Source: Cyanobacteria bacterium SIG29 (GTDB taxonomy: Bacteria; Cyanobacteriota; Vampirovibrionia; Gastranaerophilales; Gastranaerophilaceae). From it: a stretch of 64,000 nucleotides of DNA. Every line of letters begins with the position of its first letter. Position 1 is the first letter of the stretch. The notes beneath the pieces are model-generated. The model was not told the DNA's origin. It did no database searches and worked only from the letters and a program-made list of their open reading frames with translations. This document shows, piece by piece, positions 1 to 50,954 of this stretch. Both the position numbers and the translations under genes were made by a program. Location of the stretch: NCBI GenBank assembly GCA_015152515.1, contig SUTV01000001.1, forward strand, positions 186,001-250,000. The letters run 5' to 3'.

Positions 1-1869
1 TGGATTATGAGCTGAATATGTATCAAATCTAGATACACCAAGCTCATCTTCTGTATTTGCTTTTTTAGCAATATATGGAGAAGTTAAAATTCCTAAAAGA
101 TTTGTTGCCACAGGTAATGTTTCTAACGGAACATCCATTGCGTGTTTTAAAATATAGTCTTCTGTATAGTAATCATTTCCTAAATATGATTCTGGATTAA
201 TATCAGAACGAGTATCAGCATCATCAATCAATCTAGAATGATAATCACCATTTATTACAGCGTTAATTACTTCTGAATCAACAACATCTAGAGTTGATTT
301 AGGTAACTGACCAGCTGCAACTAATGCTTTAATTTTTGTAGAATACATAGATGGACTAACTGAACCTAACTGATTAGAAACATATTCTAATTGAGTATCA
401 CTTGATAATTTAGTCCAATATTTTCCAGAATTTAAAGCATAATCTCTAACAGCTAAAGCACCTTTCTCAAAGTCTTCTTTTGCTGATTGTTTCATATATT
501 CAGGTAATTTAGCGAATCTTTCATTATCCTTGTCAGCTCTATAAAAATTCAATTTGGCAATATCTACATTGCCATCCCAAACTTCAAGCCCACCTGCTGC
601 ACTTTTATTTACAACATTGAAATTTGTAAAATTAGCAGCTTGTTTAATAGTTTCAATATCAGATAAATCTATTTTGCCTTGTTTTTTATAAATTTCACTC
701 ATATTTCTAGAAAGCTCTGATGGGCTAACTTCAAAATAGAATGGATATACAGCATCATCATGTCTCGTAATATCATAAATATTATCTGTATTTTTATTAT
801 CATATGTTGTTAATCTAGCAGGAGAATTTGAAGCTTTTTGTTCATCACTAGCTAATCTATCATCATAGAATTGAATATATGTTGGTTTAGATGCATCATA
901 TTCTGGATTTTTTGTTTGTAAACTACCAGCAGAAGTTATAACAAATGGAGCGTTAATAACTTTCATTCTTGTGTAATCACATTTATCAGGAAGTACACCT
1001 AAAGAAATTTTTTCTTCTGCTCTAAATAAATTTTTAGAGAAGGAATCAGAACCTTTTCTTAATAATTCAGATAAGTGAATACCGCCAAAACCTTCATTAA
1101 CTAAAGCAGCATCAGCTACCCAGTTAATACCATGTTTGCAAAGTTCTTCTTGTAAAGTTTTAAATTCTTCTTCTGTACCTAGATTTGGAGCAACTCTATA
1201 TGCATTTTCTGTCCAATATAAGTGAGATGAAATAGAATCTTTTGTAAAAGGAGTACCTACAATTCTTTTTACACCTTCTTTTTCAAGTTCTGGTAATCGT
1301 TCGATAATACCATAGAAATTACCACCCAATTTATTTGCATGGTTTCTAACACTTGCTAAAGCTTTTGCTCTTAAACTATCTGCATATGTTGGTTTGCCAT
1401 CTTGATTAATAATTCCAGGATAATATTCATCTGGCATTATTAATTGCATTGGTCCATTTTTATTAATTGTTGCACGATTGTTTAAAACAACGTTATATTT
1501 ATTGTCTTGATTGTTATCAAAAATACCAATAACACTACCATTATCAAAAGCATATGATTTTTTGCCAGTTGTTTTATCTGTTAATTTAAATCTATAAGCA
1601 AAACCTTCTTTAGATGTAATATCAGGAATTGAATCAACGTCTACATCTATTTTGCCTTTTTCTAATGGAAAAGAAGTAACTTTATCTGAAACGCTAAAAT
1701 TTCCTTTATTATCTTTTTCTAGATTATAAAGCTCTACTTCACAATTATACTTTTGAGTATCATATAAATAAAAGAAGCTATGTGTTTGATATCCAAATTT
1801 ATCAAGCTTTTTATTATGCCCAGAAAATGTTAATTTTTGAGGATTTATATTACTTCTTTTAATATTCAC
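1..1869 (-). CDS. GH13-like (alpha-amylase fold) protein, degenerate, C-terminus outside window
   Basis: The frame is open from a GTG at 1869 to the window edge (623 codons, no stop). An AAGGAG ribosome binding site lies 6 bases before the GTG. Around residues 185-250 the reading resembles the first part of a GH13 barrel: a SSHLYWTENAYRV block, then LGTEEEFKTLQEEL, then KHGINWVADAALVNEG where active enzymes have DxVxNH. Later WDGNVDIAKLN resembles the family's W-G-x-x-D-x-x-x-LN block. I cannot find the GFRxD or catalytic Glu motifs in the visible part, so activity is doubtful. The N-terminus reads MNIKRSNINPQKLTFSGH and shares the F-x-G leader seen on other orphan proteins here. The fold assignment is moderate; a non-catalytic glucan-binding or structural role is possible. 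Confidence 0.6.
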   Translation of the reverse strand, partial: MNIKRSNINPQKLTFSGHNKKLDKFGYQTHSFFYLYDTQKYNCEVELYNLEKDNKGNFSVSDKVTSFPLEKGKIDVDVDSIPDITSKEGFAYRFKLTDKTTGKKSYAFDNGSVIGIFDNNQDNKYNVVLNNRATINKNGPMQLIMPDEYYPGIINQDGKPTYADSLRAKALASVRNHANKLGGNFYGIIERLPELEKEGVKRIVGTPFTKDSISSHLYWTENAYRVAPNLGTEEEFKTLQEELCKHGINWVADAALVNEGFGGIHLSELLRKGSDSFSKNLFRAEEKISLGVLPDKCDYTRMKVINAPFVITSAGSLQTKNPEYDASKPTYIQFYDDRLASDEQKASNSPARLTTYDNKNTDNIYDITRHDDAVYPFYFEVSPSELSRNMSEIYKKQGKIDLSDIETIKQAANFTNFNVVNKSAAGGLEVWDGNVDIAKLNFYRADKDNERFAKLPEYMKQSAKEDFEKGALAVRDYALNSGKYWTKLSSDTQLEYVSNQLGSVSPSMYSTKIKALVAAGQLPKSTLDVVDSEVINAVINGDYHSRLIDDADTRSDINPESYLGNDYYTEDYILKHAMDVPLETLPVATNLLGILTSPYIAKKANTEDELGVSRFDTYSAHNP

Positions 1870-2063
1870 TTTTTACTCCTTTTCATGCAGAAAATCTATA
1901 TTAGTCTTAATTCACCTAAAAGGTTTTTCTTGCTTTATTAGACATAATTTGTTAAGAATTTTTTACATTTTATTAACAATCACTATTGTAAAAAATTTTA
2001 ACAATAAAATAAAGAGATAACAATTCCGATTTTTTCATGTTTTAAGACTAAAGTGGAGACAAT

Positions 2064-2354
2064 ATGACCAATATTATAAATTCCCATTTATCCAATAATA
2101 ATAACGCTATCCCAGCCAAACGTATAAATTCTGACAATAAACCTGTTAGAAATGTTGGTGTAATTAGCGTGCCAGATCAACTACCAAAATATACAATAGA
2201 TAAGGCATTACAAGAAAAAGATACTTTTAGAAAAAATGTACTAGCCGATAGTTATCAAAGAAGAAATAATCAAAAAAAGAAAAAAAATATTTTCAAAACA
2301 CTTGTATTCATAGGACTTAGCGCAATTACTATTGCAATGTGTAAAAATATTTAA
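2064..2354 (+). CDS. Small protein with C-terminal membrane anchor
   Basis: This 96-residue protein is not recognised. The first 70 residues are polar and rich in Asn and Lys, with no clear domain. A lysine-rich stretch (about 68-76) precedes a single hydrophobic segment at about 78-93 (TLVFIGLSAITIAMC), which fits a tail-anchored membrane protein with its N-terminus in the cytoplasm. A GTGGAG ribosome binding site lies 6 bases before the ATG. It is followed 65 bases later by the degenerate PHP protein on the same strand and could be co-transcribed with it. The divergent neighbour at 1869 shares the 194-base intergenic region, which must hold both promoters. Confidence 0.6.
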   Translation: MTNIINSHLSNNNNAIPAKRINSDNKPVRNVGVISVPDQLPKYTIDKALQEKDTFRKNVLADSYQRRNNQKKKKNIFKTLVFIGLSAITIAMCKNI

Positions 2355-2419
2355 ACCACATAACAAATTTTATTTTTTTCATACTTTAGAAAAATACAAC
2401 TTTTCATCTCGGAGAAATA

Positions 2420-3865
2420 ATGTCAATTAAAATCCATCAAAATATCCCTGTTAATACATATAAAATACAAGAACACAAACCAAGTTCTTACTATTTTGTT
2501 GAACAAAAAAATGACACATTTACTCCATCTTTTACAAGCACAAAAAAATCATTCTTTAGTAAATTATTTGAAACAAAGGCACCAACACCTACAAAACATA
2601 TATCAAGAGATGTTAAAGTTACACAATATGCAAAAGACTTATCAGTTGGTTTAAAAGAAAAACTAGAAGTAGATCTTCCACCAGAAAATTTCGCAAATAT
2701 TTTAACTCCAGATGAATTTAATAAATTACTTAAAACTTTTAATGAAAATAGTTTTAATTCAAAGCCAGAAAATATAATGTCTGGCGTATATGTAGCTGAT
2801 TTAGATTATGTGACTAATTTTTCAACTGGGAAAGAAAATATCTTTGATATTCTAGCAAGAGTAAAAGAATTAGGCGATACATATTATGCTTTACATAAAA
2901 GACCTTTTATTTTTGCTATTACAGATAGAGATTCTTTAGAAGGTATTCAACACGTAATTAAAATGGTTGCAGAAGACCCAGATACATACGAAAATATAAA
3001 AATTTTACCAGCAGTAAAATTATCTTTTGCTCACGAAGCCCCTACTTCTAAAATCGGTTTCGAAAATAGCGAAATGTTAGTTTATGGAATAAATCCATTT
3101 GATGATAATTTAATTAATTTTGTAGATAAAGTAATAGCAAATAGAAAAGAAATGGTCGTAACATTCATTAAAAAAGTTCACGAATTATACCCAGAATTTT
3201 CTTATAATGTTATCGAATTTGCAGAACAAAATAGATTAAAATACTCAAGAGATTATTCAATATCTAATCTTTATTGGCGTGCAAGAGAATATGCTGAAAC
3301 AAAAGGTGATACAGCCATTAGAAGTACAAGTATTCCACCTCAAAAAATATTAGAAGAAGCATCTTCTATTATTGACGAACTTGATGAGATTTATACAGGT
3401 TCTAATCAAGGTTCAAAACCAATTTATGGAACACTTCTTGATGAAAAATCTGATGTAAACCAAAGTATTAAAGATGTATTTTATCAATTCTCTACTCACA
3501 AAGAGAAAGAGACTGGTAAAATTGTATCTACTGCTGAAAACTTAATCGAAGAAATGATTGATTGCGTAGATAAAAATTCTGGTGGAAAAGCTGTAATGGC
3601 GTTATCTGCTCCTTTTTATCTTTCTCATTATTTTGAAAAAAGTAATTCAAAAGAATTTAACAATGTTGTTAAATTTATAAAAAAACTACAAAAAGGTTCT
3701 AAAGGAATGTTATGCGCCTTCGAATCAGTAGTTCCAAGCTATAATATTGATAAAGGTCTTGATAAAAATAGAGTAGAAGAATTTAACAACTTCATTAGAA
3801 GGTCAACTGATTTATATGAAGTTGGCGGAAGTTTCGCAGACGCTTTTTACAGACCTAAATTTTAG
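2420..3865 (+). CDS. PHP-fold protein with all recognisable metal ligands lost
   Basis: The 481-residue protein follows the PHP phosphoesterase pattern from about residue 122 to the end, but without its metal-binding residues. VADLDYVTN (125-133) stands where PHP proteins have DLHxHT; AITDRDSLEGI (166-175) replaces ITDHDTxEGI; ILPAVKLSF (195-203) matches the GxELS strand; GGKAVMALSAPF (388-399) replaces GGxxVLAHPF; and YEVGGSFADAF (466-476) replaces the GGSDxHG ending. The spacing is preserved, so the fold is probably intact and hydrolysis lost. Residues 1-120 are a unique polar region beginning MSIKIHQNIPVNTY, with TPSFTS at 35-40, possibly a weak version of the local leader motif. CGGAGAA precedes the ATG. 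The last 11 bases overlap the convergent TPR gene. Confidence 0.65.
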   Translation: MSIKIHQNIPVNTYKIQEHKPSSYYFVEQKNDTFTPSFTSTKKSFFSKLFETKAPTPTKHISRDVKVTQYAKDLSVGLKEKLEVDLPPENFANILTPDEFNKLLKTFNENSFNSKPENIMSGVYVADLDYVTNFSTGKENIFDILARVKELGDTYYALHKRPFIFAITDRDSLEGIQHVIKMVAEDPDTYENIKILPAVKLSFAHEAPTSKIGFENSEMLVYGINPFDDNLINFVDKVIANRKEMVVTFIKKVHELYPEFSYNVIEFAEQNRLKYSRDYSISNLYWRAREYAETKGDTAIRSTSIPPQKILEEASSIIDELDEIYTGSNQGSKPIYGTLLDEKSDVNQSIKDVFYQFSTHKEKETGKIVSTAENLIEEMIDCVDKNSGGKAVMALSAPFYLSHYFEKSNSKEFNNVVKFIKKLQKGSKGMLCAFESVVPSYNIDKGLDKNRVEEFNNFIRRSTDLYEVGGSFADAFYRPKF

Positions 3866-6208: not shown

Positions 6209-6259
6209 GTTATTACCTCTCATGCTCTTTTGTAAATATTATAAATTAAAGAAACTTTT

Positions 6260-6288: not shown

Positions 6289-6317
6289 ATTTAAACAAAC
6301 AAAAAAGGATTTATATC

Positions 6318-14627: not shown

Positions 14628-16496
14628 TTACCAATCAGACAAACTTCCTTGTGAAAAATCAAGTTCATCAACAATACTAATTGCATAATCAATCAAATCA
14701 GATTGTTGGATATTTGAGTTTACTTTAGGCAAATAACTTGTTCCATTTATTCTATCAAACTCTTGCCAAAATGCTAATTGAGTTAATTCTTTCAATGGAT
14801 TATCAGATAAAACATTCTTTAAATAATTACCTTGAGTAGAAAGTAAAATATCTAATTTTAATCCTTGTTCAAATTCAGGATTATATTTTAATAACTCATT
14901 TCTCACATTTTTAGTAGTTTCTCCATCCATATGAGTTTTATATTCATCATATTTTTTAAAAGTTGCTTCTGTTTGAACTTCATAACCTTTTGGTAACGAT
15001 TTCAAAAGATTTTTAATTGAAACATCAATTGAGTCATTAGATTTTAGTATTTTTTCAATATCATTAGCAGCAATAATTTTATCAGCAACTAACTTATTTA
15101 AGATTGAGAAATTTGCAGAATTTTCTAAATTTTTATATTCTGAACTTTCTAACAATTTTCTCATTTTCATTTTTATTCCATTCGGGAATAACTGTCTATA
15201 TTCTTTAGAATTTGGATCACCTTCTAAAACTTCAAATTCAGGAATAGAAGTACTAGATAAAAGCAACTTTGCAAAATCTTGTTTAGAAGATTCTGAATTA
15301 ATTGATAATGGATTAGCAAGACTTGCAATTTTATTTAAAAGTTGAAAAGCATTTGGATAACAAGCATTAATATCAAATTTTTTAAATTTAATATCAGCTC
15401 TTATTTTGTCACTTCTTTCTTGGACTTGTTTTTTATAATTTTCAAACTCTTCACCGCCAATATTTTTATAATTATCAAATCGTTCTAAAGCGACTTTAAT
15501 TTCTTTACCTAAAGATTCTTTGTGTTCAGGGAAATTATTCCAAAAATCTTTCATTAAAGCACTCATTTTTGAATAGAATTTTATATCATAAACATCTAAC
15601 TGTTGATTTTGAATATTATATTTTGGATTATTATAGTTTTCTATCATAAATCTAGATAAATCAAACCTAATCTTTTCACAATGGTTCCAAGCATCAATCA
15701 TAGAAAACTTAGATTTTTCTGTTTTTGATAATAAAAGTTGAATTCTTTCATTAACTTCTTCTGGTGACAAATCAACAAAATATCTATTACCAATTTTTAA
15801 AGATTCTGTATCGCTATTTCTTAATTCGCATCCATAAGTTTGCCCATTTGGGGCATTAATACCTAATGGAAGGAAGAAAGTTCTTCTTGCTTCTGTGTAT
15901 GCATTTAGCGTATCTTTTAATCCCATTTTTTCAGCTTCTGGTGTAATAACATCAGATAATGCTTGAATTACAGTTTTATAAGAGTCAGCTTTTCCATAAA
16001 TTTGTTTTACAAGAAAAGTAGTAACATCTTCCTCACAAGTTAATGTTTTAATACCACGAGCTTCTAACTCTTGCATATGAGAGAAAAACTCACTTTTTGT
16101 TTTTATTTGAGATAAAGATTTTAAAGATTTAAAATGTTCTTCATATGGAAATTTAGCTTGAATATCTTGAATAGTTTTACAATCTTCTAAATCAACAAAT
16201 GCAATTCGTTGAAGTTTTTTCAAACCTTGCTCTTTTAATTTTACAAATTCTTGCTCTGACAAAACATATTGTTGATTTTCTATAAAATTACGCATTGTTG
16301 TTGGCATTTCAGTATCTTTAAATTCACTAAAAGCAGCATCAACACCTTTTGCTCCAAATGACACATAATAATTAGATGGATAAGAAACAAACTTTGAAGT
16401 TTTTTCTACATTTACTATTTTTTTTTGCTCTGCATTTTTCGCATATGCTTGATTTATAAAATAATTATTTTTTATATTTATTGCAGAAATTTTCAT
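14628..16496 (-). CDS. Orphan protein with N-terminal SFG motif
   Basis: This 622-residue protein is not recognised. It is mostly helical, polar and without membrane segments. The N-terminus is MKISAINIKNN, and a V-S-F-G-A motif follows at about residues 46-50, the same leader pattern as in the neighbouring 746-residue protein. Near the C-terminus FWQEFDRINGTSYL resembles FWKKYDEKNGTDLV in that neighbour, which suggests a shared terminal module. I start at ATG 16496, with GAGGA 6 bases upstream; the ATG at 16502 touches that site. The gene lies 12 bases after the upstream gene, and the two are probably one transcript. Confidence 0.6.
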   Translation of the reverse strand: MKISAINIKNNYFINQAYAKNAEQKKIVNVEKTSKFVSYPSNYYVSFGAKGVDAAFSEFKDTEMPTTMRNFIENQQYVLSEQEFVKLKEQGLKKLQRIAFVDLEDCKTIQDIQAKFPYEEHFKSLKSLSQIKTKSEFFSHMQELEARGIKTLTCEEDVTTFLVKQIYGKADSYKTVIQALSDVITPEAEKMGLKDTLNAYTEARRTFFLPLGINAPNGQTYGCELRNSDTESLKIGNRYFVDLSPEEVNERIQLLLSKTEKSKFSMIDAWNHCEKIRFDLSRFMIENYNNPKYNIQNQQLDVYDIKFYSKMSALMKDFWNNFPEHKESLGKEIKVALERFDNYKNIGGEEFENYKKQVQERSDKIRADIKFKKFDINACYPNAFQLLNKIASLANPLSINSESSKQDFAKLLLSSTSIPEFEVLEGDPNSKEYRQLFPNGIKMKMRKLLESSEYKNLENSANFSILNKLVADKIIAANDIEKILKSNDSIDVSIKNLLKSLPKGYEVQTEATFKKYDEYKTHMDGETTKNVRNELLKYNPEFEQGLKLDILLSTQGNYLKNVLSDNPLKELTQLAFWQEFDRINGTSYLPKVNSNIQQSDLIDYAISIVDELDFSQGSLSDW

Positions 16497-16508: not shown

Positions 16509-18749
16509 CTATAAAGTCCAATCAATTTTATCTACAGCATCTAATTTCATTTGTTGTACTTTTTCAGATTTAAAATTTTTAATCACCAATGAAACTAAAT
16601 CTGTACCATTTTTTTCATCATATTTTTTCCAGAAAGATTCTAATAAAGTTGTTTTTAATTCATCACAAACATCTTTATCACATAACAATTCATAATATGA
16701 ACCTTCATTCAATAACAAGGTTAAAACATCAGACATATTTAACTCATTATCTTTTAATGGAGAAAATTCTAATAAAGCATCAAGAACACCTGTTTCTTTT
16801 CTTTTTGAATCATCTGACATTCTAACATTAAACTTATTGAAAAGTTTATCAGCTTGAGACATATCAAACTTATTTTTTAAAGTAATTCTAACTGGATTAT
16901 TATCTGTCGGTAGTAATATATTTGTTTTACCTGAAGTTACTTCATCAAATAAAGCTTTTGTTTGTTTTAAAGATAAAGAATATATTTCAGCTGGTTTATT
17001 TGAAGAATTTTCATAAACAGAATGTAAAAATGCAAATCTAACAGCTTTTTTTATTACTTGATAATCATTTTGTTCTGAAAGTTGTTTCAATAAATCATTA
17101 ACAAAAATTTGAATACTTTTCTTATCTTTATTTAAAGAAGAAAATGCATTGTCATCAAATAATTCATCAACTAATTGCAAAATCATTTTTTCAGAACTTT
17201 GTAAAGAAATAGGAAGCACATTTGCTACAATTTTTTCTTTAAATTTTTGTTTTTGTTCTTCTATATAAGTTCTTGGTTTCTGAACTCCCTCAATTTTTTG
17301 AGGTTCTTCAATACCATTAGAAAAATTAACTTTTACTTGAGGAATATTAACAACTTGTACTTCTACAGGCTTTTCACTAGAAACTTGTCCTTTTGAGTTT
17401 TGTTGTTGAACTTGAAGGTTAGAAAATCTTTTTTGAAATTTTTCAATTTGACTAGAACTAGATTGAGCAGTTAAAAGTATAGCTACATTTTCAGAATATA
17501 AAGCATCTAACTTTTGATATGATTCTTTAACTTCATCTAATGTTTTAGCATATGCAGTAATTTTTTCTAATTTTTTTTCTAAATCTAAAACAGAGCAAGA
17601 TGATAAATCAACATTAAAATATTTAATTAATTGAGAATCTACTTTCTTTAATTTTGCTTTTATTTCTTGATAAATTACATCTATTTCATCTAACACACTT
17701 CTTTTGGCAACTTCTTTAACCATTGATTCTTCTGTTTGTTTGTGTATTTTTTCAATATTTTCTAGTGTTTCAGTAATATAACTAGAAGAACTATCTAAAA
17801 CACTAATAATTTGACTTGATAATTCATCTTTTTTTTCAAATTGAGAAAGAGCCTCTTCTTCAATTTTTTCTAAAAGAAGAACCAATTCACTCATTGAAAA
17901 ATCACCATTTTTTATTTTTTTAAAAGTAGAAATCTCTTCATCTGATAACATTTTATTTTCGTTTAATTTTGATTTAAAATAACTTACCTGTTTTCTAATA
18001 TTAGCCAACTTTTCAGTTTCTAAAACAAATAATTTTTTAATAGACTCAATATCTTGTTTTGGAATAATAATTTTTTCTTGTTGCCATTCTTTTTGATCTT
18101 TTTCAAAAGTTGTCATCCTAACATTTAATTTTTCACTATAAGAAATCAAAACAGATTCAAATAAATCAAATTCAGTTTTTAACTCATTTATTGAATTTTG
18201 AAGTTCTTTATTCATTCTGTTTTGTGTAACATCAATAGATTTATCAGAAGTTTGAATTTGCATTTCTTGTGCATATTTATTTTCAAAACCTTCAAATGGA
18301 GAAGTAGATTGTATTTTATCTTTCCACATTTGCAATTGTTCTTGTGTTGGTTCACCATTAAAAATAATCAATTCACCATTTAATGAATCAGCTCTTTTAA
18401 TTGCGTTTATAAAATCATACGCAGCACCAGCATCAATAGGATCTTGTGTCGTCATAATAATAACTTGTCCATATGGACCAGTATATTTATCATGTTTTGA
18501 ACCACCTGATTTCTTGTAGCCAAAATACTCACAAATATTTATCATATGTGATCTTTTGATATTGTACATACAAGAAGAATTTCCTGATTTTAATTCTTCA
18601 ATTTTCTTTTTGATATTGCCACCAGCCCCAAAAGATACAATATCTTTTGTCAATGGAGACAACTTTGTGTTGTTTCCGAACCTACTATTATTTACTTTAC
18701 TTTCCGAATTGAAATAATTTGTAGGGGAAGACATTTTTAAAATTTTCAT
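16509..18749 (-). CDS. Large coiled-coil orphan protein with SFG leader and HicA-like N-terminal region
   Basis: The 746-residue protein starts MKILKMSSPTNYF and has V-S-F-G-A-G at about residues 39-44. Residues 60-125 (INICEYFGYKKSGGSKHDKY, then QVIIMTTQDPIDAGAAYDFI) resemble the small HicA mRNA-interferase fold, with GGSKH at the position of GSHH; this match is weak. Residues 170-450 are strongly charged heptad-like sequence (coiled coil). The remaining C-terminal part is helical and ends with the FW-x-x-(Y/F)-D-x-x-NGT motif shared with the downstream protein. AAGGGTG precedes the ATG. No transmembrane segment or signal peptide is seen. Confidence 0.6.
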   Translation of the reverse strand: MKILKMSSPTNYFNSESKVNNSRFGNNTKLSPLTKDIVSFGAGGNIKKKIEELKSGNSSCMYNIKRSHMINICEYFGYKKSGGSKHDKYTGPYGQVIIMTTQDPIDAGAAYDFINAIKRADSLNGELIIFNGEPTQEQLQMWKDKIQSTSPFEGFENKYAQEMQIQTSDKSIDVTQNRMNKELQNSINELKTEFDLFESVLISYSEKLNVRMTTFEKDQKEWQQEKIIIPKQDIESIKKLFVLETEKLANIRKQVSYFKSKLNENKMLSDEEISTFKKIKNGDFSMSELVLLLEKIEEEALSQFEKKDELSSQIISVLDSSSSYITETLENIEKIHKQTEESMVKEVAKRSVLDEIDVIYQEIKAKLKKVDSQLIKYFNVDLSSCSVLDLEKKLEKITAYAKTLDEVKESYQKLDALYSENVAILLTAQSSSSQIEKFQKRFSNLQVQQQNSKGQVSSEKPVEVQVVNIPQVKVNFSNGIEEPQKIEGVQKPRTYIEEQKQKFKEKIVANVLPISLQSSEKMILQLVDELFDDNAFSSLNKDKKSIQIFVNDLLKQLSEQNDYQVIKKAVRFAFLHSVYENSSNKPAEIYSLSLKQTKALFDEVTSGKTNILLPTDNNPVRITLKNKFDMSQADKLFNKFNVRMSDDSKRKETGVLDALLEFSPLKDNELNMSDVLTLLLNEGSYYELLCDKDVCDELKTTLLESFWKKYDEKNGTDLVSLVIKNFKSEKVQQMKLDAVDKIDWTL

Positions 18750-19539: not shown

Positions 19540-21483
19540 TTATGCAACTAAATCACTGTATTCGCTATATCTATCATCTGTTGGATATGTGAAAATAATA
19601 GCGCCTGTTGGGAACATATCTCTCATATATTCATATGTAGCTTCTTTATCTATTCTGCCATTTGTTCTTACAGGTGGGAAGCCTTTACAACCCCAAGTAT
19701 GTTCATTAACAGTATAGTGAACAACGGTTCCTTTTTCATAAGCATTATCATTAATGCCTTCTTCTAAACCAATAAGTCTTAATGCTTTTTTACCCATTGA
19801 ATTTGAATAATATTCTTTTCCAACTTGTTCAAAACCAGAAAGAGTAGCATGAGAACCGTGTTTATTTGCGGTCTTAATATTATCCATATTTCCTGAACCA
19901 GTTTTCATTACACTTTGTCCAACTAATTCAAAATTATTTAAATCAAGTAAATAATATCTTTCTTTATTACTGCTTTGTGTTGTATCAAAAATTCCTAAAT
20001 AACCTGTTGCTTTTTGTTCATCAGTTAAATTTTCATATCCTTCTAAAGCCATTAAGAATACATCATAATTTAAACCTTTTTCATCTAATCCCATATTTTT
20101 ATATAATTGTTCAGGATTACCCAAGCTATTAATTGAAAATTCTTTTTCTATATTTTTAGCATTTTGAGCATTGATTTCAGCATTTAATTTATCAATTTTA
20201 GCTTGAATTTCGCTTTCTTTTTGTTTAGCTTTAGCAATTTCAGATTCTTGAACAGATTTAACATTTTCTTCTGCTGTTTTAAACGCTTCTAAAGCAGCTT
20301 GTGTTTCAGGAGCACAATTAGCAAGTATTTCAGCTTCAATTTCGCCCCTTGTTGTTTCATAAGCAGCTAAAGTTTCTTCTTCTTTAGTTAAAGTTTTTTC
20401 TAATTGTGTTTTAGTTTCTTCTAATGCTGCTAATTGAGCTTCATCTTCTTTTAATTTGTTTTCTGCAGAAGTTAATCTTGAGTTTGCAGCGCTTAATTTA
20501 TCAGCTATATCTTTTTTAACAGCTGGGTCCTCTGATGTTTGAGATTTTAAATCAGAAATAGATTTTTTTATTGCATCAATATCACTTTTATCTGAAGTAA
20601 TAGTAGCTTGTTGAGAAGTAATAGCATCTTCATTTTCACTAATTTTAACTTTTACTTCATTTACAACTGCTGTTTGACTATCAATATTTGCTTGATTTTC
20701 TTGTTGTCTAGCCAATAAATCTTCTGAAATATTTTCATCATTTTCTAAAGCTTGTTCATAAGCTAATTTTTTAGCGTCACAATCTTCTTGTGCTGATTTA
20801 ATTGCGTCTGTATTACCTGATTGAGCATCAGTAACATTTTTTTGAGCTTCTTTTAAATCAGCTTGAAGTTGGTCTATGCTAACAGATTCAGTTGCATTTG
20901 AAGAAGAAGACTCACCAATATCTATAGATGAACCACCATTTTTTGAGCCATTGCGTCCACCAGTTCGTCCTGTATCTTTTGCTCTTTCTGGTTTATGAGA
21001 TTCTTCAATAGGTACAACACTATCTTCTAAATCAGGTGTTTCATTTGATTCTTCTGGTGCAAATGTACCATCTTGAATAGAATTAAGTGCAGAAACAACA
21101 TCATAAACAGAAATATCTTGATTCATACCATCTAAATCTTCTACAGCATCAAGAAAAGCATTTATTTCTTCCATACTTAAAGAACCATTAGAATCCACAT
21201 CAACGATATTCATTACTGTATTATCTTGAAGTAAGTCATTAAACATACCCGCAAACGCTTGATTATCTTCACCATAAGAATCATCAGAAACAAATTGACC
21301 ATCTTCAAAAATAAGTTGAGAACTATCAATAGAAGATCCAAAAGAATCACCATAACCTGCTTCAGTTAAAAATTCTTCTAATTTATCAGGATCAGAGAAT
21401 ATGCTAAAGTCAGTAATGCTAGGGTTTAAATTCATTACCATTCTTTGAAAATCTTCATTATTTGTAAAAAAATTAACAAACAC
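19540..21483 (-). CDS. EF-hand, coiled-coil and L,D-transpeptidase (YkuD_2-type) protein
   Basis: The 647-residue protein combines three parts. An EF-hand loop, DVDSNGSLSMEE (95-106), has all calcium ligands. Residues about 205-440 are an alanine- and glutamate-rich coiled coil. The C-terminal 170 residues match the murein L,D-transpeptidase family (PF13645 type): YLLDLNNFELVGQ, KHGSHATLSGFEQVG, LRLIGLEEGINDNAY, VVHYTVNEHTWGCKGFPPV, with catalytic His about 589 and Cys about 599. The expected role is peptidoglycan cross-linking or lipoprotein attachment, outside the inner membrane, but no signal peptide is visible from this GTG start (AGAGG 10 bases upstream). Export would need a non-classical route. 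Confidence 0.75.
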   Translation of the reverse strand: MFVNFFTNNEDFQRMVMNLNPSITDFSIFSDPDKLEEFLTEAGYGDSFGSSIDSSQLIFEDGQFVSDDSYGEDNQAFAGMFNDLLQDNTVMNIVDVDSNGSLSMEEINAFLDAVEDLDGMNQDISVYDVVSALNSIQDGTFAPEESNETPDLEDSVVPIEESHKPERAKDTGRTGGRNGSKNGGSSIDIGESSSSNATESVSIDQLQADLKEAQKNVTDAQSGNTDAIKSAQEDCDAKKLAYEQALENDENISEDLLARQQENQANIDSQTAVVNEVKVKISENEDAITSQQATITSDKSDIDAIKKSISDLKSQTSEDPAVKKDIADKLSAANSRLTSAENKLKEDEAQLAALEETKTQLEKTLTKEEETLAAYETTRGEIEAEILANCAPETQAALEAFKTAEENVKSVQESEIAKAKQKESEIQAKIDKLNAEINAQNAKNIEKEFSINSLGNPEQLYKNMGLDEKGLNYDVFLMALEGYENLTDEQKATGYLGIFDTTQSSNKERYYLLDLNNFELVGQSVMKTGSGNMDNIKTANKHGSHATLSGFEQVGKEYYSNSMGKKALRLIGLEEGINDNAYEKGTVVHYTVNEHTWGCKGFPPVRTNGRIDKEATYEYMRDMFPTGAIIFTYPTDDRYSEYSDLVA

Positions 21484-21713: not shown

Positions 21714-23081
21714 ATGAAGGTTTCTGCAGTTCAGTCCTATGTTACAAATTTTCGTGGCATAGAGAGAAAAGAAGATCCAAAAACTTCGAATTTCGCGATT
21801 AATGGAGCAGGTAGTGGCATAGGTAAAAATATGCTAAGACAATATTTACTTGCTAAATTAGCACCAAAAGGTGTTTGGAATAAATGGGATGAATTAGGCG
21901 AGATTTATAAAACTCAAAATCTAGTAACTTTAAACTTAGGTTCAATGGGATTAAAAGGTGACCAAAAAATCCAAGACCTTCCTGATGAAGTTATTTTAGA
22001 GCAAATTAAACACGGAAATATTTTAGGTGATTTACCAGATTCTATAAGATTAAGCATTGGAAGATCAGGAAAGAAAACCGAACTTCAAGATACAAGAGAA
22101 ATTTTCTTGATTGCAGAATCAAAAAGAAATTACGAAGTAATTAAACTTGAAGCAACAAGACAACCTGTAGATTGGTCTCAATACAAAGCGCAAATAGTTG
22201 TTGATACAACTGGTGCAAATACTACAAGAGAAAAATTGATGAAACATCTTGGCGGAACAGTTAAATACGCTGTTTTATCAGCACCTTCAAAAAATTCTGA
22301 TATGCTAACTGTTGTTCCAGGTATAAACAATGAAATGCTAAATGAAATTGAAGAAAAAGGAAATATTGTTTCTGCTGCAAGTTGTACAACAACCTGTATT
22401 TCGCCATACATCAAATTATTTGAAGAAAAATTTGGAATAGAAAGTGGATTTATTGATACAACACACGCGGCAACTGGTTCACAAAATATTGCAGATAAAG
22501 CAAACTCTAAAGCTGAATCTAAATCAAGAGGTTCTTTAGATGCAATGATTCCTACAACAACAGGTGCAGCAAAAGCAATTGGACTTGTTATTAAATCAAA
22601 AGAAGGCGGAAAAATTCCTTTAGATGGACTTGCAACAAGAGTTCCAACTGGCGATGGTTCTATGGCAATAATCACTCTAAAATTAAAAGAAAAAACAACT
22701 ATGGATGAAGTTGTTAAAGTGCTAAAAGACGCAGAAAACGACCCAAACTACAAAAATTTAATTGCAAAAGCACCAAAAGGTTCAACTTCAAAAGATGTAA
22801 TTAATCGAATTGAAAGTGGATTGTACATTCCAGAAGCTATTAAATTAACAAATGGTGACTTGTTATCTATAAAAGTTTACTATGATAACGAATTTGGTTA
22901 TACAAGAAGCTTGGCTACATTAACTGGAAAAGTTGGTGAAAGAATAATAGCTGAAAATGAAGCAAATTCGCCAAAACAAAAATCAATGCACGAAAGACAT
23001 ACTGGGTATGGTGATTCAGTAGATGAAACAAACCCAGCCTTCGAAGATTATATGAGATCACGCTCTGGCGAAGATTTATAA
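21714..23081 (+). CDS. Divergent glyceraldehyde-3-phosphate dehydrogenase-like protein
   Basis: At 455 residues this is about 120 longer than normal GAPDH (about 335). The catalytic region is intact: AASCTTTCISP with Cys224, His251 in DTTHAATGSQ, then PTTTGAAKAIGL, LDGLATRVPTGDGS and YYDNEFGYTRSLATL. The nucleotide motif is INGAGSGIGK instead of INGFGRIGR, and residues 45-160 are expanded. The first 27 residues are extra and begin MKVSAVQSYVTNFRG, like the leader on other orphan proteins here. AGGAGAG precedes the ATG. Oxidation of glyceraldehyde 3-phosphate is likely, but substrate and cofactor preference may differ. A hairpin terminator follows. It is a single gene, divergent from the L,D-transpeptidase gene. 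Confidence 0.8.
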   Translation: MKVSAVQSYVTNFRGIERKEDPKTSNFAINGAGSGIGKNMLRQYLLAKLAPKGVWNKWDELGEIYKTQNLVTLNLGSMGLKGDQKIQDLPDEVILEQIKHGNILGDLPDSIRLSIGRSGKKTELQDTREIFLIAESKRNYEVIKLEATRQPVDWSQYKAQIVVDTTGANTTREKLMKHLGGTVKYAVLSAPSKNSDMLTVVPGINNEMLNEIEEKGNIVSAASCTTTCISPYIKLFEEKFGIESGFIDTTHAATGSQNIADKANSKAESKSRGSLDAMIPTTTGAAKAIGLVIKSKEGGKIPLDGLATRVPTGDGSMAIITLKLKEKTTMDEVVKVLKDAENDPNYKNLIAKAPKGSTSKDVINRIESGLYIPEAIKLTNGDLLSIKVYYDNEFGYTRSLATLTGKVGERIIAENEANSPKQKSMHERHTGYGDSVDETNPAFEDYMRSRSGEDL

Positions 23082-25291: not shown

Positions 25292-25292
25292 A

Positions 25293-34479: not shown

Positions 34480-34875
34480 ATGTATAATGTAAGTTTTGGT
34501 GGTACAGTAGCAGGTCACGCTTGGAACAAACAAATTGGTAATTCAAATACAAGAGAACTAGCTGAAGCATTAAAAAGAGGAATGAAAGAAGGTGCTGAAG
34601 CATTAGGCCTTGATAAAGTATATTTAAATGGTGGTTTAAAAATGACAGGTGCTCAATTAGAAAGAAGCAACCCTGGTCTTTTTGACGCAAAAACAAAATT
34701 AATTCTTAATGAAGCAAAACCAAGAATGGAACATTTCCTTGATAAAATGTATAAATTAAATTTAAAATCAAACTTAAAAGAACTTAGTGATGCAGCTAAA
34801 AATACAACAATTAAAGCAACAGAAAATTTTGGTGGCAAAAACATTGTAACTATTGGTTTAAACGTTTTAGGATAA
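34480..34875 (+). CDS. Small orphan protein beginning MYNVSFGG
   Basis: This 131-residue protein is not recognised. It starts MYNVSFGGTVAGHAWNKQ, so the V-S-F-G motif is at residues 4-7 with almost no leader. The rest is helical and basic (ELAEALKRGMKEGAEALGLD, KPRMEHFLDKMYKLNLKSN), with no signal peptide or membrane segment. AAAGGAG lies 9 bases before the ATG. It is a single gene bounded by its own terminator. The protein at 38366 starts in nearly the same way (MNVSFGS). Confidence 0.65.
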   Translation: MYNVSFGGTVAGHAWNKQIGNSNTRELAEALKRGMKEGAEALGLDKVYLNGGLKMTGAQLERSNPGLFDAKTKLILNEAKPRMEHFLDKMYKLNLKSNLKELSDAAKNTTIKATENFGGKNIVTIGLNVLG

Positions 34876-38024: not shown

Positions 38025-38366
38025 TTAATTATACAATTCTTTTTTCTTTGGTTTTCCTGCTTTTTGTTTACCCTTTTGAGCATAATTAAAATCGCCCAAT
38101 TGCTCTTTAATATATGAATCTATCTTATCTTTAGGTAAAGCTTCAGCTTCAAATTTTTGGTATTCTCTGTATCCAATTCTTCTTAAATCTTGTTCAAACT
38201 GCGCATCTAATTTATTTGAGATAGAAACTCTAGCAGTTCCATTTGCTGATTTATTTTGAGTTGCCAAACCACCATATTGTTTTGCTAAATCTCTTAAAGA
38301 TTGTCTAACACTTTCGCCACCTTTTCTAAATGGTATTCTATATGTAGAACCAAAAGATACATTCAT
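38025..38366 (-). CDS. Small orphan protein beginning MNVSFGS
   Basis: This 113-residue protein is not recognised. It starts MNVSFGSTYRIPFRKGGESV, with V-S-F-G at residues 3-6 as in the 131-residue protein at 34480. The remainder is basic and ends with a lysine-rich tail (QKGKQKAGKPKKKELYN), which suggests nucleic-acid binding. I use ATG 38366, with AAGGGAG upstream, rather than the ATG at 38399, since the extra 11 residues would cover the ribosome binding site. Own terminator; divergent from uvrA. Confidence 0.62.
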   Translation of the reverse strand: MNVSFGSTYRIPFRKGGESVRQSLRDLAKQYGGLATQNKSANGTARVSISNKLDAQFEQDLRRIGYREYQKFEAEALPKDKIDSYIKEQLGDFNYAQKGKQKAGKPKKKELYN

Positions 38367-41316: not shown

Positions 41317-41685
41317 TTACGCTGTAGTAGAACAAACTTTACCTGGTTTTTTATTAGCCTTATGTTCATCTGCTCTAGAACACAAATAAGCTTGAGAATC
41401 AGCGTCTTTTTTGCAAGATTGAACAATTTTGCCAACAACAGCACCTGCTAACCTACCAACAGTAGTTACAACACCAATAATACCAGCTGTTGTAAGAGCA
41501 GCAATTGCAATACCTTTGTTTTTACTACCTAATTTTTCTAAACCATTTTGAGCAGCTTGCGTAAATGTAGATTTAGCATTTTTTGCAACATAAGCACCAG
41601 ATACAGCTAAACCAGCTACGGTTCCATATCTTTTACCTTTTTGTACCGGTGTGTATGTTGATACAGGGGAAATTTTCATTGCCAT
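41317..41685 (-). CDS. Small orphan protein beginning MAMKIS with glycine/alanine hydrophobic segment
   Basis: This 122-residue protein is not recognised. It starts MAMKISPVSTYTPVQKGKRY. Two hydrophobic, Gly- and Ala-rich stretches follow (YGTVAGLAVSGAYVAK at about 20-35 and IAIAALTTAGIIGVVTTVGR at about 59-78), and then a basic, cysteine-containing tail (four Cys if the CSTTA end is counted). AAGGAAG lies 7 bases before the ATG. The MKIS start is like the other leader proteins, but a clear SFG motif is missing. It may insert in membranes; holin-like function is only a guess. Confidence 0.55.
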   Translation of the reverse strand: MAMKISPVSTYTPVQKGKRYGTVAGLAVSGAYVAKNAKSTFTQAAQNGLEKLGSKNKGIAIAALTTAGIIGVVTTVGRLAGAVVGKIVQSCKKDADSQAYLCSRADEHKANKKPGKVCSTTA

Positions 41686-43823: not shown

Positions 43824-43827
43824 AATC

Positions 43828-45811: not shown

Positions 45812-46477
45812 TTATTTACTTTTATCACGCAACATTTTTGCAGTGCAACCAGCACCACTCATATCTTCATAAGAATTCTTTTTACAATATGTTTCTTCTG
45901 GGAAATATGTTCCAGGGTCACCCATTGCAAGCAACTTACCTTCATTACTTACTTGGAACATAAACAAATCTCGACCAAGTCTATTTGGTTTTTTATATGG
46001 TCCATTAACATCAACTGAAATAATAACTCTATTATTGATGCTATCAATACTAGGGTTTTCAATCATAATAAAAGTACCATCATTTAAAATAAATTGACCA
46101 TCATCAAAAAAATAGTAATTCAAATTTGAATTTCCATAATAATTTTTATAACGATCATAATCTTTATTACCATAATAAAAATCAGTATTACCGAAATCTT
46201 GAGCTATATTAAAATGTTTTACAAATACATCTTTAAAAGTACGCCCTTCAAAATTGCCACCTTTTGGAACAACACCATTATCAATATAATAATATTCTAA
46301 TGCTTGAGCGATTATAGAATGACTCTTTTTCAACATAGAACGAATTTCTTCATCTTTTGAATTCGCTATAACAGTTGGAATTGTAATTGCCGCAATTACA
46401 CCAATAATAACAAGAGTAATAAGTACTTCTGCTAATGTAAAACCTTTTTTATAATTAATAAGTTTATTTTTCATCAT
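45812..46477 (-). CDS. Type IV pilin/pseudopilin-like protein
   Basis: The 221-residue protein starts MMKNKLINYKKG followed by FTLAEVLITLVIIGVIAAIT, a canonical prepilin N-terminus: cleavage after the glycine, glutamate at position 5 and a long hydrophobic helix. The C-terminal globular part contains many aromatic residues and ends with two or three cysteines. Secretion or pilus assembly is likely. I reject a longer frame to 46786 because it is antisense to the ACT-domain gene. The stop codon abuts the hydG stop. Confidence 0.87.
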   Translation of the reverse strand: MMKNKLINYKKGFTLAEVLITLVIIGVIAAITIPTVIANSKDEEIRSMLKKSHSIIAQALEYYYIDNGVVPKGGNFEGRTFKDVFVKHFNIAQDFGNTDFYYGNKDYDRYKNYYGNSNLNYYFFDDGQFILNDGTFIMIENPSIDSINNRVIISVDVNGPYKKPNRLGRDLFMFQVSNEGKLLAMGDPGTYFPEETYCKKNSYEDMSGAGCTAKMLRDKSK

Positions 46478-46595
46478 AACAAAAGTTATAATAACATTTA
46501 TTACTTGTATAAAGCAAATATTTAAAATTATATTCTGTTTGCTTTTAGTCCATTTTGTTAATAAAATAAATACATAAATAATGATTGGAGTAGAA

Positions 46596-46874
46596 ATGAG
46601 CGAAGATAAAATTATAGTTACAATTTCTGGAAAAGATGGAGTTGGTATCGTTGCTGAAATTGCAAGCGTACTTGCGAAATATGAAGTTAATATTGAAGAT
46701 ATTAGACAAACAATTATGCAAGGTTGTTTTATGATGTTCTTACTTGCTGATATCAGCAAATCAAAATATCCGTTTAAAGAAATCAAAGAAGCAGTAACTC
46801 AATCAGGTCAAAAACTTGGTATGGAAATTTGGATTCAAAAAAAAGAAATCTTTGATAAAATGCACACAATTTAA
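46596..46874 (+). CDS. ACT-domain protein (UPF0237 family)
   Basis: The 92-residue protein is a single ACT domain: [43 protein letters not shown] domains bind amino acids or other small ligands. It precedes the UPF0210 gene by 11 bases; this pair is conserved in many anaerobes. I choose ATG 46596, which has TTGGAG upstream, not ATG 46581. Confidence 0.9.
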
Positions 46875-46885
46875 GGATATTTAAA

Positions 46886-48253: not shown

Positions 48254-48263
48254 GGAGAATTTC

Positions 48264-48839
48264 TTGTTTTTCAAAATAAGAAGATTTTATCTTTTTCATA
48301 AAATGTACGAAAAAGGAATAAATAGAGAAAACATTGGCGAATACCCAAAGGCTTTGCACTATTTATTCTTTGCTTTATCTTTAAAAGGAAGTTCAATTAA
48401 AACATATAAAGCTATTGCAAGAGTTTATAGAAAAAACAGACAATATTTAAATGGCTTAGATTTTTATTCAAAAGCATTAAATATTCACCCACAAAATGCA
48501 GAACTTTATGCCTTAAAAGCTGATTTACATAGAAAGAACAAACAGTTTGATTTATCTATAAAACATTATGACCAAGCAATAAAATACGATTGTAATAATG
48601 TTCAATATTATATAAATCGAGCTCAGATAAAATTCTTATCTGATGATGTTGAAGGCGCAATAAATGATTATTCTTCTGCAATAAAAAGAGATGAAAATAA
48701 CTCAAATTTATATTCACAAAGAGGATTTTATTACCTTTTAAATAATAATTTTGACGAAGCAAAACAAGACTATAAAAAAGCGAATGAACTTACTCCAAAT
48801 AATAAACATATAAAAGAAATACTTGAGATTATTAGTTAA
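48264..48839 (+). CDS. Tetratricopeptide-repeat protein
   Basis: The 191-residue protein consists of about five TPR units (for example YPKALHYLFFALSLKGSSIK, YYINRAQIKFLSDDVEGAIN, LYSQRGFYYLLNNNFDEAKQ). It starts with TTG at 48264, preceded by AAGGAG at 6 bases; the TTG is supported because no ATG is suitably placed. No signal peptide is seen. It follows UPF0210 by 10 bases and precedes the phosphopantetheinyl transferase gene by one base. Confidence 0.85.
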   Translation: MFFKIRRFYLFHKMYEKGINRENIGEYPKALHYLFFALSLKGSSIKTYKAIARVYRKNRQYLNGLDFYSKALNIHPQNAELYALKADLHRKNKQFDLSIKHYDQAIKYDCNNVQYYINRAQIKFLSDDVEGAINDYSSAIKRDENNSNLYSQRGFYYLLNNNFDEAKQDYKKANELTPNNKHIKEILEIIS

Positions 48840-48840
48840 T

Positions 48841-49422
48841 ATGAAAATTTTTTATATTGAATTAAATCAAAATATAAAAAAAGATAAAAAGAAACTGCAA
48901 TCAGCGTTAGGTCATTACCTTACAAAAAATATTGCAAAAACAGTTTATGGCGTTAAAAATTCTGAATTTATAATTGAAAACTCTAAACCAAAATTTAAAA
49001 CCAACGAAATTGAATTTAATATTTCTCATTCAAATAATATTGTGACAATTGCGTTTGACAACTATCCACTAGGTTTAGATGTAGAACAAATTAAAAATAG
49101 AAACTTAAAAGCGCTAAAAGAAAGATACAACCTTCAACATTATGAAGATGAAACCTTCTTCCAATTTTGGACTCAATATGAAGCGAAAATAAAAATCCAA
49201 GCTGAAATAAACCAAAAATTTTGCTTTAAATTAAAAGATGATTATATGCTTTCTTTATATTGCAATAATTTAGAAAAAAAAGAACTTGAATTATTTGAAA
49301 TTAAAACAACAGAAGAAATTCTAACAACTGAAAATCTTGAAACCTTAATTTTTAACAAAGATTTCAATATTATTCAAAAACAAATTCCAACGCTAAAAAC
49401 ACCGTTAGAAATTAATGTTTAA
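48841..49422 (+). CDS. 4'-phosphopantetheinyl transferase (Sfp/AcpT-type)
   Basis: The 193-residue protein has FNISHSNNIVTIAF, PLGLDVEQIKNRN (the Mg-binding GxDxE-type site) and FFQFWTQYEAKIK (family WTxKEAxxK). These transferases add the phosphopantetheine arm to carrier proteins. It is shorter than Sfp (about 224). It starts at ATG 48841, one base after the TPR gene stop. No polyketide or non-ribosomal peptide genes are nearby. The last four bases (TTAA) are shared with the convergent ROK-like gene. Confidence 0.88.
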   Translation: MKIFYIELNQNIKKDKKKLQSALGHYLTKNIAKTVYGVKNSEFIIENSKPKFKTNEIEFNISHSNNIVTIAFDNYPLGLDVEQIKNRNLKALKERYNLQHYEDETFFQFWTQYEAKIKIQAEINQKFCFKLKDDYMLSLYCNNLEKKELELFEIKTTEEILTTENLETLIFNKDFNIIQKQIPTLKTPLEINV

Positions 49423-50954
49423 CTTTCAACTAAAGTTTTTAATGGAATAGAAAACCAAGAACCACGATTTGGTGTAAATTCTAATTTCTTGTCTAATAAT
49501 ATATCACCAGCAAAAGTATTATCTGGGAAGTCTATAGCGCTATCACATATAACTTCAAAGTTATACAATTCCATCAATCTTTTTGTTGATGGTAAATCTA
49601 CATGGTTTTCATCAGCATTAGTATCAATCTTTTTTCTAATCAAATCTGATAAATCTTTAGCACCATAATCTTCTTGGTTTTGCATAATATGTCTATTTAA
49701 ACCTTGAGCAAATGGACCAACCAAATATACTTTATTAATACAATCATTAATTTTGTTTATTGAAATTAAAGAAACTGAATTAGCATAGTCATTAACAGCA
49801 ATAATTCTTGCTCTTTTAATTTGTTCATCAGTTAAAACATCATGATTCATTGAAAATGCATATTTATCTGGATTATCAGACTCAATTTCTGCAAAATATT
49901 CACAATCTTTCAATTGTTGATATAATTTTTTATCATCTTTTGAAACATACATTTTATCATTAGCTACAATTCTCGCATCACCAACTTTTTGTACTAAAGT
50001 TAATAATTGTGCTTTTTCTTCTTTTGATATAGGCAACTCTAATGCATTAAGAAAACATTTTATATGAGATTTTACACTAACACCTTGTCTTCCTAATTTT
50101 TCTAACACAGGGAAAAATTCTGCAAGTCCTACACCATTTTTGATTTCATCAAATTTTTCTTTAGGATTATCAGAAGCAAGAATTTCATCAAATGTTTTTG
50201 TAATTTTATCGTAAATTAAAGTATTACCTGTTAAATAACTACTACTTTCTGAAGTTTCAAATTCAACATATGGGTCGTTTTCTGAACCTTTTACCTTAAT
50301 ATCAACGCTACCGAAGCCACCACCAGTCATTACACCCATAATATAATCACCAGATTTTAACTCACCACGTTTGGCTAAAATTTTAGCAATAGCAAGCCCA
50401 GCACCACCCAAGTCTTTAGTAACAACAAGTTCAAAATCATCACTAGCATCCAAACCTTCTGCCCTACGACCTTGCTCTTTTATTTCTCTTTCATATTCTT
50501 TAAAATCTACATTTAGAATTGATTCACCTTTATCATTTCTTAAATTTGGAATAAAAGCGATTCTATCATCTTTACACATAGTAAATGTAGTACCCGGAAC
50601 AAAAACTGCTACACTAGAAATCTTTTTATCTGCTTCGTCACTACCATTTTTATCAGTAGCAAAACGAATTTTACCTTCACTTGCCAATCTTAAAACATCT
50701 TGATGGGCATTATAAATAACATCATCAAGTTTAGAAATAAAATCTGCCTGTCCGCCATCTACTTGTCCAGTTTTTTCATCAAATGTTTTAAATCCTTCTG
50801 TAGTGTGATTTAAAAAGCCATTTCTTTTGTATAAATCTCTTCCATCATCAGATTTAACAAGAACCTTACATGTTCCTTTTGGATTACTGGCACCAATATC
50901 AACGATAATTTTATGACCAAAGCTAATAGAAGCCGGATTAGCAGCAATTTTCAT
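49419..50954 (-). CDS. ASKHA-fold (ROK/hexokinase-like) protein with SFG leader
   Basis: The 511-residue protein begins MKIAANPASISFGH, with I-S-F-G at residues 10-13, directly followed by IIVDIGASNPKGTCKVLV, a phosphate-binding strand of the sugar kinase/actin fold. Later VAVFVPG, VTKDLGGAGLAIAKIL, YIMGVMTGGGFGSVDI (glycine-rich phosphate 2 loop) and NKVYLVGPFAQGLNRHIM complete the pattern. It is much longer than typical ROK kinases (about 310) because of insertions, so a change in substrate or loss of activity is possible. AAGGGA lies 6 bases before ATG 50954; the TTG at 50960 was rejected. Confidence 0.68.
   Translation of the reverse strand: MKIAANPASISFGHKIIVDIGASNPKGTCKVLVKSDDGRDLYKRNGFLNHTTEGFKTFDEKTGQVDGGQADFISKLDDVIYNAHQDVLRLASEGKIRFATDKNGSDEADKKISSVAVFVPGTTFTMCKDDRIAFIPNLRNDKGESILNVDFKEYEREIKEQGRRAEGLDASDDFELVVTKDLGGAGLAIAKILAKRGELKSGDYIMGVMTGGGFGSVDIKVKGSENDPYVEFETSESSSYLTGNTLIYDKITKTFDEILASDNPKEKFDEIKNGVGLAEFFPVLEKLGRQGVSVKSHIKCFLNALELPISKEEKAQLLTLVQKVGDARIVANDKMYVSKDDKKLYQQLKDCEYFAEIESDNPDKYAFSMNHDVLTDEQIKRARIIAVNDYANSVSLISINKINDCINKVYLVGPFAQGLNRHIMQNQEDYGAKDLSDLIRKKIDTNADENHVDLPSTKRLMELYNFEVICDSAIDFPDNTFAGDILLDKKLEFTPNRGSWFSIPLKTLVES

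Follow-up and report, generated by a model that had tools for sequence, protein, structure and literature searches.

What role could one and the same short leader play on proteins that are otherwise unrelated? The question is raised by a 64,000-nucleotide stretch from Cyanobacteria bacterium SIG29 (genome G000; assembly of 1.54 Mb, 82.5% complete), a member of the Gastranaerophilales, which are non-photosynthetic relatives of the cyanobacteria. This stretch, G000:C13:186001-250000, is called the window here. An original prediction had named seven proteins in it that begin with a polar leader and a motif such as SFG, and had proposed a tag specific to the lineage that would either gather its bearers in one place or mark them for export. 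Judged from sequence, the leader is quite possibly an N-terminal signal that directs proteins to a type III export system of flagellar origin, one that was retained after loss of the filament. We hold this reading tentatively; export is the role that the sequences favor, and gathering is its main rival.

The leader has two conserved blocks with a variable, polar, acid-poor linker between them: M[KR][IV][NS]x[IV] at the start, and a core resembling [STN]F[GKRT]G up to ~60 residues downstream. Enrichment was weak with a loose regular expression, and two-block profiles were used instead, covering residues 2-7 and the eight residues around the F. Profile 1 was trained partly on the rest of G000 and on no window gene. 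Profile 2 had 44 leaders from other genomes as its training set, with the tested genome always left out, and needs a polar stretch ahead of the core, so that hydrophobic N-termini are excluded by definition. Training sets and some expressions were selected after earlier matches had been read, and open reading frames (ORFs) were picked by length without a gene finder. All seven leaders were recovered with the coordinates and motifs first given for them:

1819..1869, minus strand: leader of the GH13-like protein, MNIKRSNINPQKLTFSG; GTG start, TFSG at residues 14-17, gene start at 1869.
16350..16496, minus strand: leader of a 622-amino acid orphan, MKISAI...YVSFGA; SFGA at residues 46-49, 22.0 bits (profile 2).
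18624..18749, minus strand: leader of a 746-amino acid orphan, MKILKM...DIVSFGA; SFGA at residues 39-42, 11.0 bits (profile 2).
21714..21758, plus strand: leader of the GAPDH-like protein, MKVSAVQSYVTNFRG; NFRG at residues 12-15, 15.3 bits (profile 2).
34480..34503, plus strand: very short leader of a 131-amino acid protein, MYNVSFGG; SFGG at residues 5-8, 11.7 bits (profile 1), <8 bits (profile 2).
38346..38366, minus strand: very short leader of a 113-amino acid protein, MNVSFGS; SFGS at residues 4-7, 12.7 bits (profile 1), <8 bits (profile 2).
50913..50954, minus strand: leader of the ROK-like protein, MKIAANPASISFGH; SFGH at residues 11-14, 10.0 bits (profile 1), <8 bits (profile 2).

Inspection by eye found a purine-rich, Shine-Dalgarno-like stretch ahead of each of the seven starts and, as had been claimed, no Sec- or Tat-type hydrophobic N-terminal core in any of the seven leaders. 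The GH13-like gene extends past the window edge at position 1; its product matches the Pfam alpha-amylase family (E 4.7e-10), and its leader is the lowest-scoring of the seven (<6 bits, profile 1). The gene for the 746-amino acid protein ends 6 bases ahead of the longest start of the 622-amino acid ORF, and the two therefore probably form one operon. The name ROK-like found no support, as searches of Pfam (E up to 0.1) and of PDB sequences gave zero ROK matches for that protein; a distant homologue in G039 has the N-terminus MKVNSIGSQNMYVGVAPSFKS.

Within the window, [VI][ST]FG is found in 5 called ORFs, and only in their N-terminal region. At ≥8 bits, profile 1 matched 8/58 window genes versus 0/215 internal decoys: six of the seven named proteins, the ORF at 41317-41685, and a gene starting at 45812 (minus strand), whose product is hydrophobic and was judged probably a false positive. 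Profile 2 at 8 bits matched 5/58 genes versus 2/263 decoys (p = 0.003), namely the 622- and 746-amino acid orphans, the GAPDH-like protein and two additional leader-like N-termini:

41638..41679, minus strand: MKISPVSTYTPVQK, with a degenerate core, in the 122-amino acid ORF 41317-41685; 16.0 bits (profile 1), 12.6 bits (profile 2).
2420..2539, plus strand: MSIKIHQN...TPSFTS, in a 481-amino acid orphan; 11.9 bits (profile 2).

Because profile 2 misses them at 8 bits, the two tiny proteins, the so-called ROK-like protein and the GH13-like protein are weaker members of the set; the notion of a lineage-specific N-terminal tag is supported by the held-out statistics and by the conservation in orthologues given below.

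The leader extends beyond the window, to the rest of the contig and to other genomes. On the 408-kb contig (393 ORFs; the stretches adjoining the window overlap it by 500 bases at its edges), the N-terminal parts of the ORFs (the first 60 residues of each, 23,580 in all) contain [VI]SFG 10 times and the other 105,278 residues contain it twice, an N-terminal density ~18-fold higher with half a count added. Profile 2 at 10 bits matched 19/377 genes of the contig versus 5/1580 internal decoys (p = 3e-10), and thus roughly 5% of the called contig genes have the leader; the motif is N-terminal well beyond chance. Families and genera bear the numbers that the search tool gives them (f1, g1 and so on), f1 being the window's own family, and the order was sampled by 117 genomes. 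In five other f1 genomes, profile 2 at 8 bits matched 17/545 genes versus 9/1921 decoys (p = 2e-6), and G013 of f7 gave 4/107 versus 1/328. Outside the order, a clear excess at 8 bits was absent from two f9 genomes (3/199 genes versus 7/689 decoys) and from f14 (3/101 versus 2/308), f12 (0/92 versus 2/355) and f8 (1/114 versus 3/203). Look-alike N-termini with RFGK, QFSG or AFGQ do occur in f9 genomes (L131 19232, minus strand; L135 15905, plus strand; L056 2749, minus strand), and their excess is not significant by profile.

A codon pattern for the first block, MKI[NS]x[IV], gave 196 matches over 40 genomes versus 100 for the reversed pattern. Matches were taken as 30 loci plus 40 stretches chosen for having S, N, P or A as fifth residue and not for the core, and 63 distinct frames were read. 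The F core lies at residues 5-75 in 32 of the 42 frames of ≥80 amino acids thus selected by their first block, versus 10/90 control windows further in; the 42 frames are not independent, in that at least two families recur across several genomes.

The linker between the blocks in these frames is poor in Asp plus Glu (7.6% versus 14.6% in the protein bodies) and rich in Asn, Gln, Ser and Thr (36.7% versus 21.3%). Among 19 held-out tagged proteins of G000, Asp and Glu make up 0.9% of residues 8-13, versus 12.0% in 271 other polar N-termini, a comparison in which the core block of the profile overlaps these residues in short leaders. Acidic residues are absent from residues 2-13 in 18 of the 19, partly through selection, and Leu makes up 3.5% of residues 8-50, versus 8.7% in the other polar N-termini. 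Two type III traits are thus present, the N-terminal position of the signal and a lack of acidic residues over the first ~12; a third, >10% serine in the first 50, is not (mean 8.9% over residues 8-50). For the type III secretion system (T3SS) of Pseudomonas syringae, the accessible portion of PMC3338616 describes three N-terminal patterns that are not absolutely required, and two of these, an aliphatic third residue and acid-poor positions, are found in the leader. The P. syringae signals are likewise N-terminal and polar, with almost no acidic residue in the first dozen; in contrast, their rules, as given there, have no second block like that around the F-x-G core, and the serine excess here is not significant. 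In its position, its composition and its missing hydrophobic core, the predicted leader fits a type III signal.

The leader is found on second, divergent copies of two enzymes, GAPDH and adenylate kinase, and by its core only on those of glycogen synthase, whereas the canonical copies read are untagged. A second, divergent GAPDH copy is present in 5/117 genomes and has the leader in 5/5; a second adenylate kinase is present in 3/117 (G000, G035 and G067), with the leader in 3/3. The leader is thus kept in the orthologues read, as the original prediction needed it to be, in counts that are not phylogenetically independent. The core was present in 0/7 canonical proteins read, that is, the GAPDHs of G000 (L381), G105, G069 and G057 and the adenylate kinases of G000, G067 and G035, and in further genomes it was found at none of 25 canonical GAPDH loci (one in a wrong frame, leaving 24 informative) or 29 adenylate kinase loci. 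For GlgA it was set beforehand that long copies should have M[KR][IV][NS].. plus the core and canonical ones should not. The core was present in 11/20 long divergent GlgA-like proteins, 0/30 canonical GlgAs and 0/120 internal windows, and was not visible in the other 9/20; the 20 are part of the long matches listed, and the core expression was tuned after they had been read. As the first block mostly differs, the expectation was borne out for the core only. Several long GlgA-like proteins (L280, L282, L286, L289 and L292-L295) have, by eye, the core near residue 7-12, then a Pro/Gln-rich linker, a hydrophobic segment and a starch-synthase-like domain.

Cargo in the window comprises the GH13 protein, the orphans, the GAPDH-like protein, the small proteins and the so-called ROK-like protein. 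The catalytic Cys and His regions of the GAPDH-like protein align with solved GAPDHs, and it is 79-80% identical to its counterparts in two Candidatus Gastranaerophilales metagenome-assembled genomes. Further tagged proteins, from the contig and from relatives, are a second GH13 enzyme, an adenylate kinase, a PF03496 ADP-ribosyltransferase, a kinase-like protein, a LysM protein, a nucleotidyltransferase, a metallophosphatase, CheR-type methyltransferases, GT5 glycogen-synthase-like proteins and some that, by eye, have hydrophobic segments further on; for many more, Pfam gives no match. The carbohydrate-enzyme theme first noticed in the window was upheld, with GH13, GT5, nucleotidyltransferase and GAPDH proteins tagged and GH77 carrying a variant leader (see below). 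A 962-amino acid protein (L004 11192-14080, minus strand) has the leader ahead of a hydrophobic stretch and a lipobox-like LSGC, resembling two stacked signals. The idea that the tag is a general mark of ADP-ribosyltransferases was rejected, since only 3/16 readable N-termini reached ≥8 bits (30 loci, of which 12 were cut ahead of the start and 2 had no frame); PF03496 domains, a number of them in frames of >2000 residues, occur in 44/117 genomes of the order and in 0/14 control genomes.

A candidate machine lies close by. The compact, filament-less flagellar-type cluster at C13:169882-179939 (L012 9882-19939), ~6 kb ahead of the window, encodes FliI, FlhA, FliH, a 338-amino acid protein, FliF, FliE, a transglycosylase, FlgC, FlgB and FlgG, so that ATPase, stator and ring (FliI, FliH and FliF; L012 9882-16784) are present in G000. 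The 338-amino acid protein has no Pfam match and sits in what we take to be the usual place of FliG. The order fliE-fliF-u338-fliH-flhA is kept in 9/9 other f1 loci fetched; FliI was not among the genes of the G001-type clusters looked at. The G000 FlhA falls under both equivalog cut-offs (SctV 589.6 versus 692.25 bits; FlhA 667.4 versus 772.1), and therefore does not pass as SctV in the manner of an injectisome, or non-flagellar T3SS.

The FHIPEP family, to which the FlhA/SctV export gate belongs, is present in 117/117 genomes of the order and the channel protein FliP (SctR) in 115/117, whereas flagellin is found in 43/117, with no flagellin match in G000. Among the matches listed, FlhA proteins of a second class, at 690-736 bits, occur in at least 110/117 genomes; of the 74 genomes that lack flagellin, 73 are among these, the exception being G045. 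A class of 850-891 bits occurs in at least 40 genomes, all 40 with flagellin. A tree of 28 FlhA proteins split 100/100 into a clade of 11 that is flagellate-associated and one of 17 from the other class, the latter including three from f10 and f12, although the program warned of long branches meeting and named the f10 rows. One FlhA of each clade is present in G006 and G012 (f6), G118 (f9) and G123 (f14). The short branches within f1 are an argument against decay. An f8 genome sampled over 100 kb has only a FHIPEP match below the cut-off and no leader excess, consistent with a link between leader and machine.

A second FlhA-related gene may link the two. A free-standing FlhA C-domain gene (~490 amino acids, with a different N-terminal part) is present in 19/19 f1 genomes examined, and in G000 it lies outside the window:

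L021 6988-8451, plus strand: free FlhA C-domain gene of G000; FHIPEP E 8e-51, nearest solved relative an FlhA chain at E 5e-21.

In known systems, the FlhA C-domain docks export substrates. Directly after this gene, on the same strand, 15/19 f1 genomes have a GH77 (amylomaltase) gene with a variant leader, the gap between the two matches being 73-140 bp. The GH77 class starts M[RK]VLGINN.[IL][ST]F[QE]RRP in 17/17, an expression written after the sequences had been read, the variant having been spotted by eye; two other GH77 copies read (L379 and L380) have no such variant. In G000, the two genes next to the free FlhA C-domain gene, on the opposite strand, have strong leaders (26.1 bits for one, 21.1 bits for the other); one gene beyond them lies another tagged gene (15.1 bits).

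On the reading we favor, the leader would be read by the flagellum-derived type III apparatus, which the Gastranaerophilales retain with or without flagellin, and the apparatus would export the tagged proteins. The putative receptor of the leader would be either the free-standing FlhA C-domain or the full FlhA, and the cargo may act extracellularly, with glycogen, starch and neighboring cells as examples of its targets. The most complete form of this proposal, in which gut relatives of cyanobacteria have lost motility and their flagellum-derived machine would export a parallel glycogen and glycolysis toolkit, together with effector-like proteins, by means of a sequence-defined N-terminal zip code received by the free-standing FlhA C-domain, is possible but doubtful.

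Several observations weigh against export by this machine. The neighbor link rests on a variant leader, because the GH77 start has F.RR for F.G and is unscored by the profile, which at 8 bits picked up 0/3 of the GH77 starts tested (L350, L351 and L353). The FlhA C-domain-GH77 pair is absent in G029, G035, G014 and G000 itself, and the block around the free FlhA C-domain gene seems to be conserved whole, so that shared ancestry may explain part of the link; gene by gene, four other such loci gave profile matches in 3/43 genes. The flhA loci have few tagged genes, with 5 profile matches at 12 loci, at least one of them false (FlgC of G012), in genomes that were partly in the training set. The other orders f9 and f14 hold the second FlhA class without a significant leader; G000's own, incomplete assembly has no FliP match; and in G045, with a completeness rating of 99%, the best FHIPEP match is a fragment (E 2.8e-48) and none is full-length. 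Among the ADP-ribosyltransferases, the 3/16 with the leader are L158, L171 (doubtful by eye) and L177 (a training sequence). Sharp motifs are rare in type III signals, and the serine excess over residues 8-50 is not significant (8.9% versus 6.7%, p = 0.08). Finally, there is little or no enrichment by profile 2 in G064 (f1; 1/80 genes versus 2/265 decoys), G035 (f1; 3/82 versus 4/285) or G006 (f6; 2/108 versus 5/357).

Such unenriched genomes (G064, G006, f9, f12 and f8) are what would be expected if chance were at work, an Asn/Ser/Lys-rich proteome making MKI.. and SFG common. Internal decoys drawn from the same proteome, together with held-out training (p = 3e-10 and 2e-6, above), refute this for G000 and leave it a negligible probability overall. 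A purely regulatory N-terminus, serving as degron, protease site or translation ramp and not affecting localization, would account for a leader that is always N-terminal and a linker of low complexity; it is nevertheless very improbable, given that second enzyme copies are tagged while the canonical copies read are not, and that the conserved core may sit >40 residues past the start. Export by a different route (for example a type IV system, an unrecognized one-step exporter or vesicles), with the leader as its signal and the second flagellar-type set incidental, is unlikely. The effector-like cargo and the missing hydrophobic signal core would suit it, as would the relatives in other orders that have FlhA and no significant leader, and a type IV system is proposed for the related predator Vampirovibrio in the text seen of PMC4451040. 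It leaves the neighbors of the free FlhA C-domain gene unaccounted for, and type IV signals are usually C-terminal. For type I, the sections consulted of PMC3787301 report the system as missing in gut types.

The strongest rival takes the leader for an internal address that docks spare glycolytic and glycogen enzymes on a cytoplasmic assembly, granule or membrane patch, with the flagellar-type genes serving some other end. Many cargoes are indeed carbohydrate or nucleotide enzymes, several long GlgA-like proteins combine (by eye) the core with a Pro/Gln-rich linker and a hydrophobic segment, and a sharp motif suits a docking peptide; we regard this as a serious possibility, albeit on balance an unlikely one. 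The cargo also includes ADP-ribosyltransferase, kinase-like, CheR-type, LysM and metallophosphatase proteins, and an internal address predicts neither acid-poor, Leu-poor leaders nor FlhA C-domain neighbors. Export is favored over gathering because of the acid-poor, Leu-poor, Asn/Gln/Ser/Thr-rich leader, the FlhA C-domain neighbors and a cargo that extends to ADP-ribosyltransferase, kinase-like and CheR-type proteins and to those with later hydrophobic segments. A glycosome-like compartment for glycolysis only was also considered, and is weakened by the ADP-ribosyltransferase, kinase-like, CheR-type and LysM cargo.

One further window gene, at 19540-21483 on the minus strand, encodes an L,D-transpeptidase (YkuD_2, E 4e-19) that is preceded by a start resembling an EF-hand by eye and by a long coiled coil; no leader was scored on it.

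Export by a flagellum-derived core without a filament has a parallel in the Myxococcales-type non-flagellar T3SS, which was once annotated as a decaying relic (PMC3459982, in the part seen). There, FlgB, FlgC and FliE are reportedly lacking, according to the same part of that paper, whereas FlgB, FlgC, FlgG and FliE are kept here in several genomes. The nearest parallel for the cargo is the export of chlamydial glycogen enzymes: glycogen synthase was found outside the bacterium, its authors suggesting a Sec-type route for GlgA (PMC3722199), and other enzymes of the pathway gave preliminary type III secretion in a heterologous assay (PMC7935935), both as far as the excerpts seen go. Here, in contrast, a non-Sec leader is on the extra copies and the canonical copies read are untagged. 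In Melainabacteria, flagellar remnants of the same kind of genes have been described, two flhA being among 13 flagellum-related genes (PMC3787301), and such incomplete sets have been interpreted as loss or genome reduction (PMC3787301 and PMC4040986, in the parts of both papers seen). We argue for a retained function and not a relic, because the genes are present in nearly all 117 genomes and their FlhA proteins form a separate clade. No paper on such a system in Gastranaerophilales, Melainabacteria or Vampirovibrionia was found among the matches listed in openly licensed PMC full text.

The signals of type III substrates are generally difficult to recognize. If the proposal is true, the "decaying flagella" of an uncultured and widespread gut order would become a working secretion system, whose substrates could be identified from a signal readable in sequence and whose cargo would be known by name. 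This would bear on the retention of flagellar export genes in lineages without flagellin, and also on the ways in which gut Melainabacteria may act upon their surroundings.

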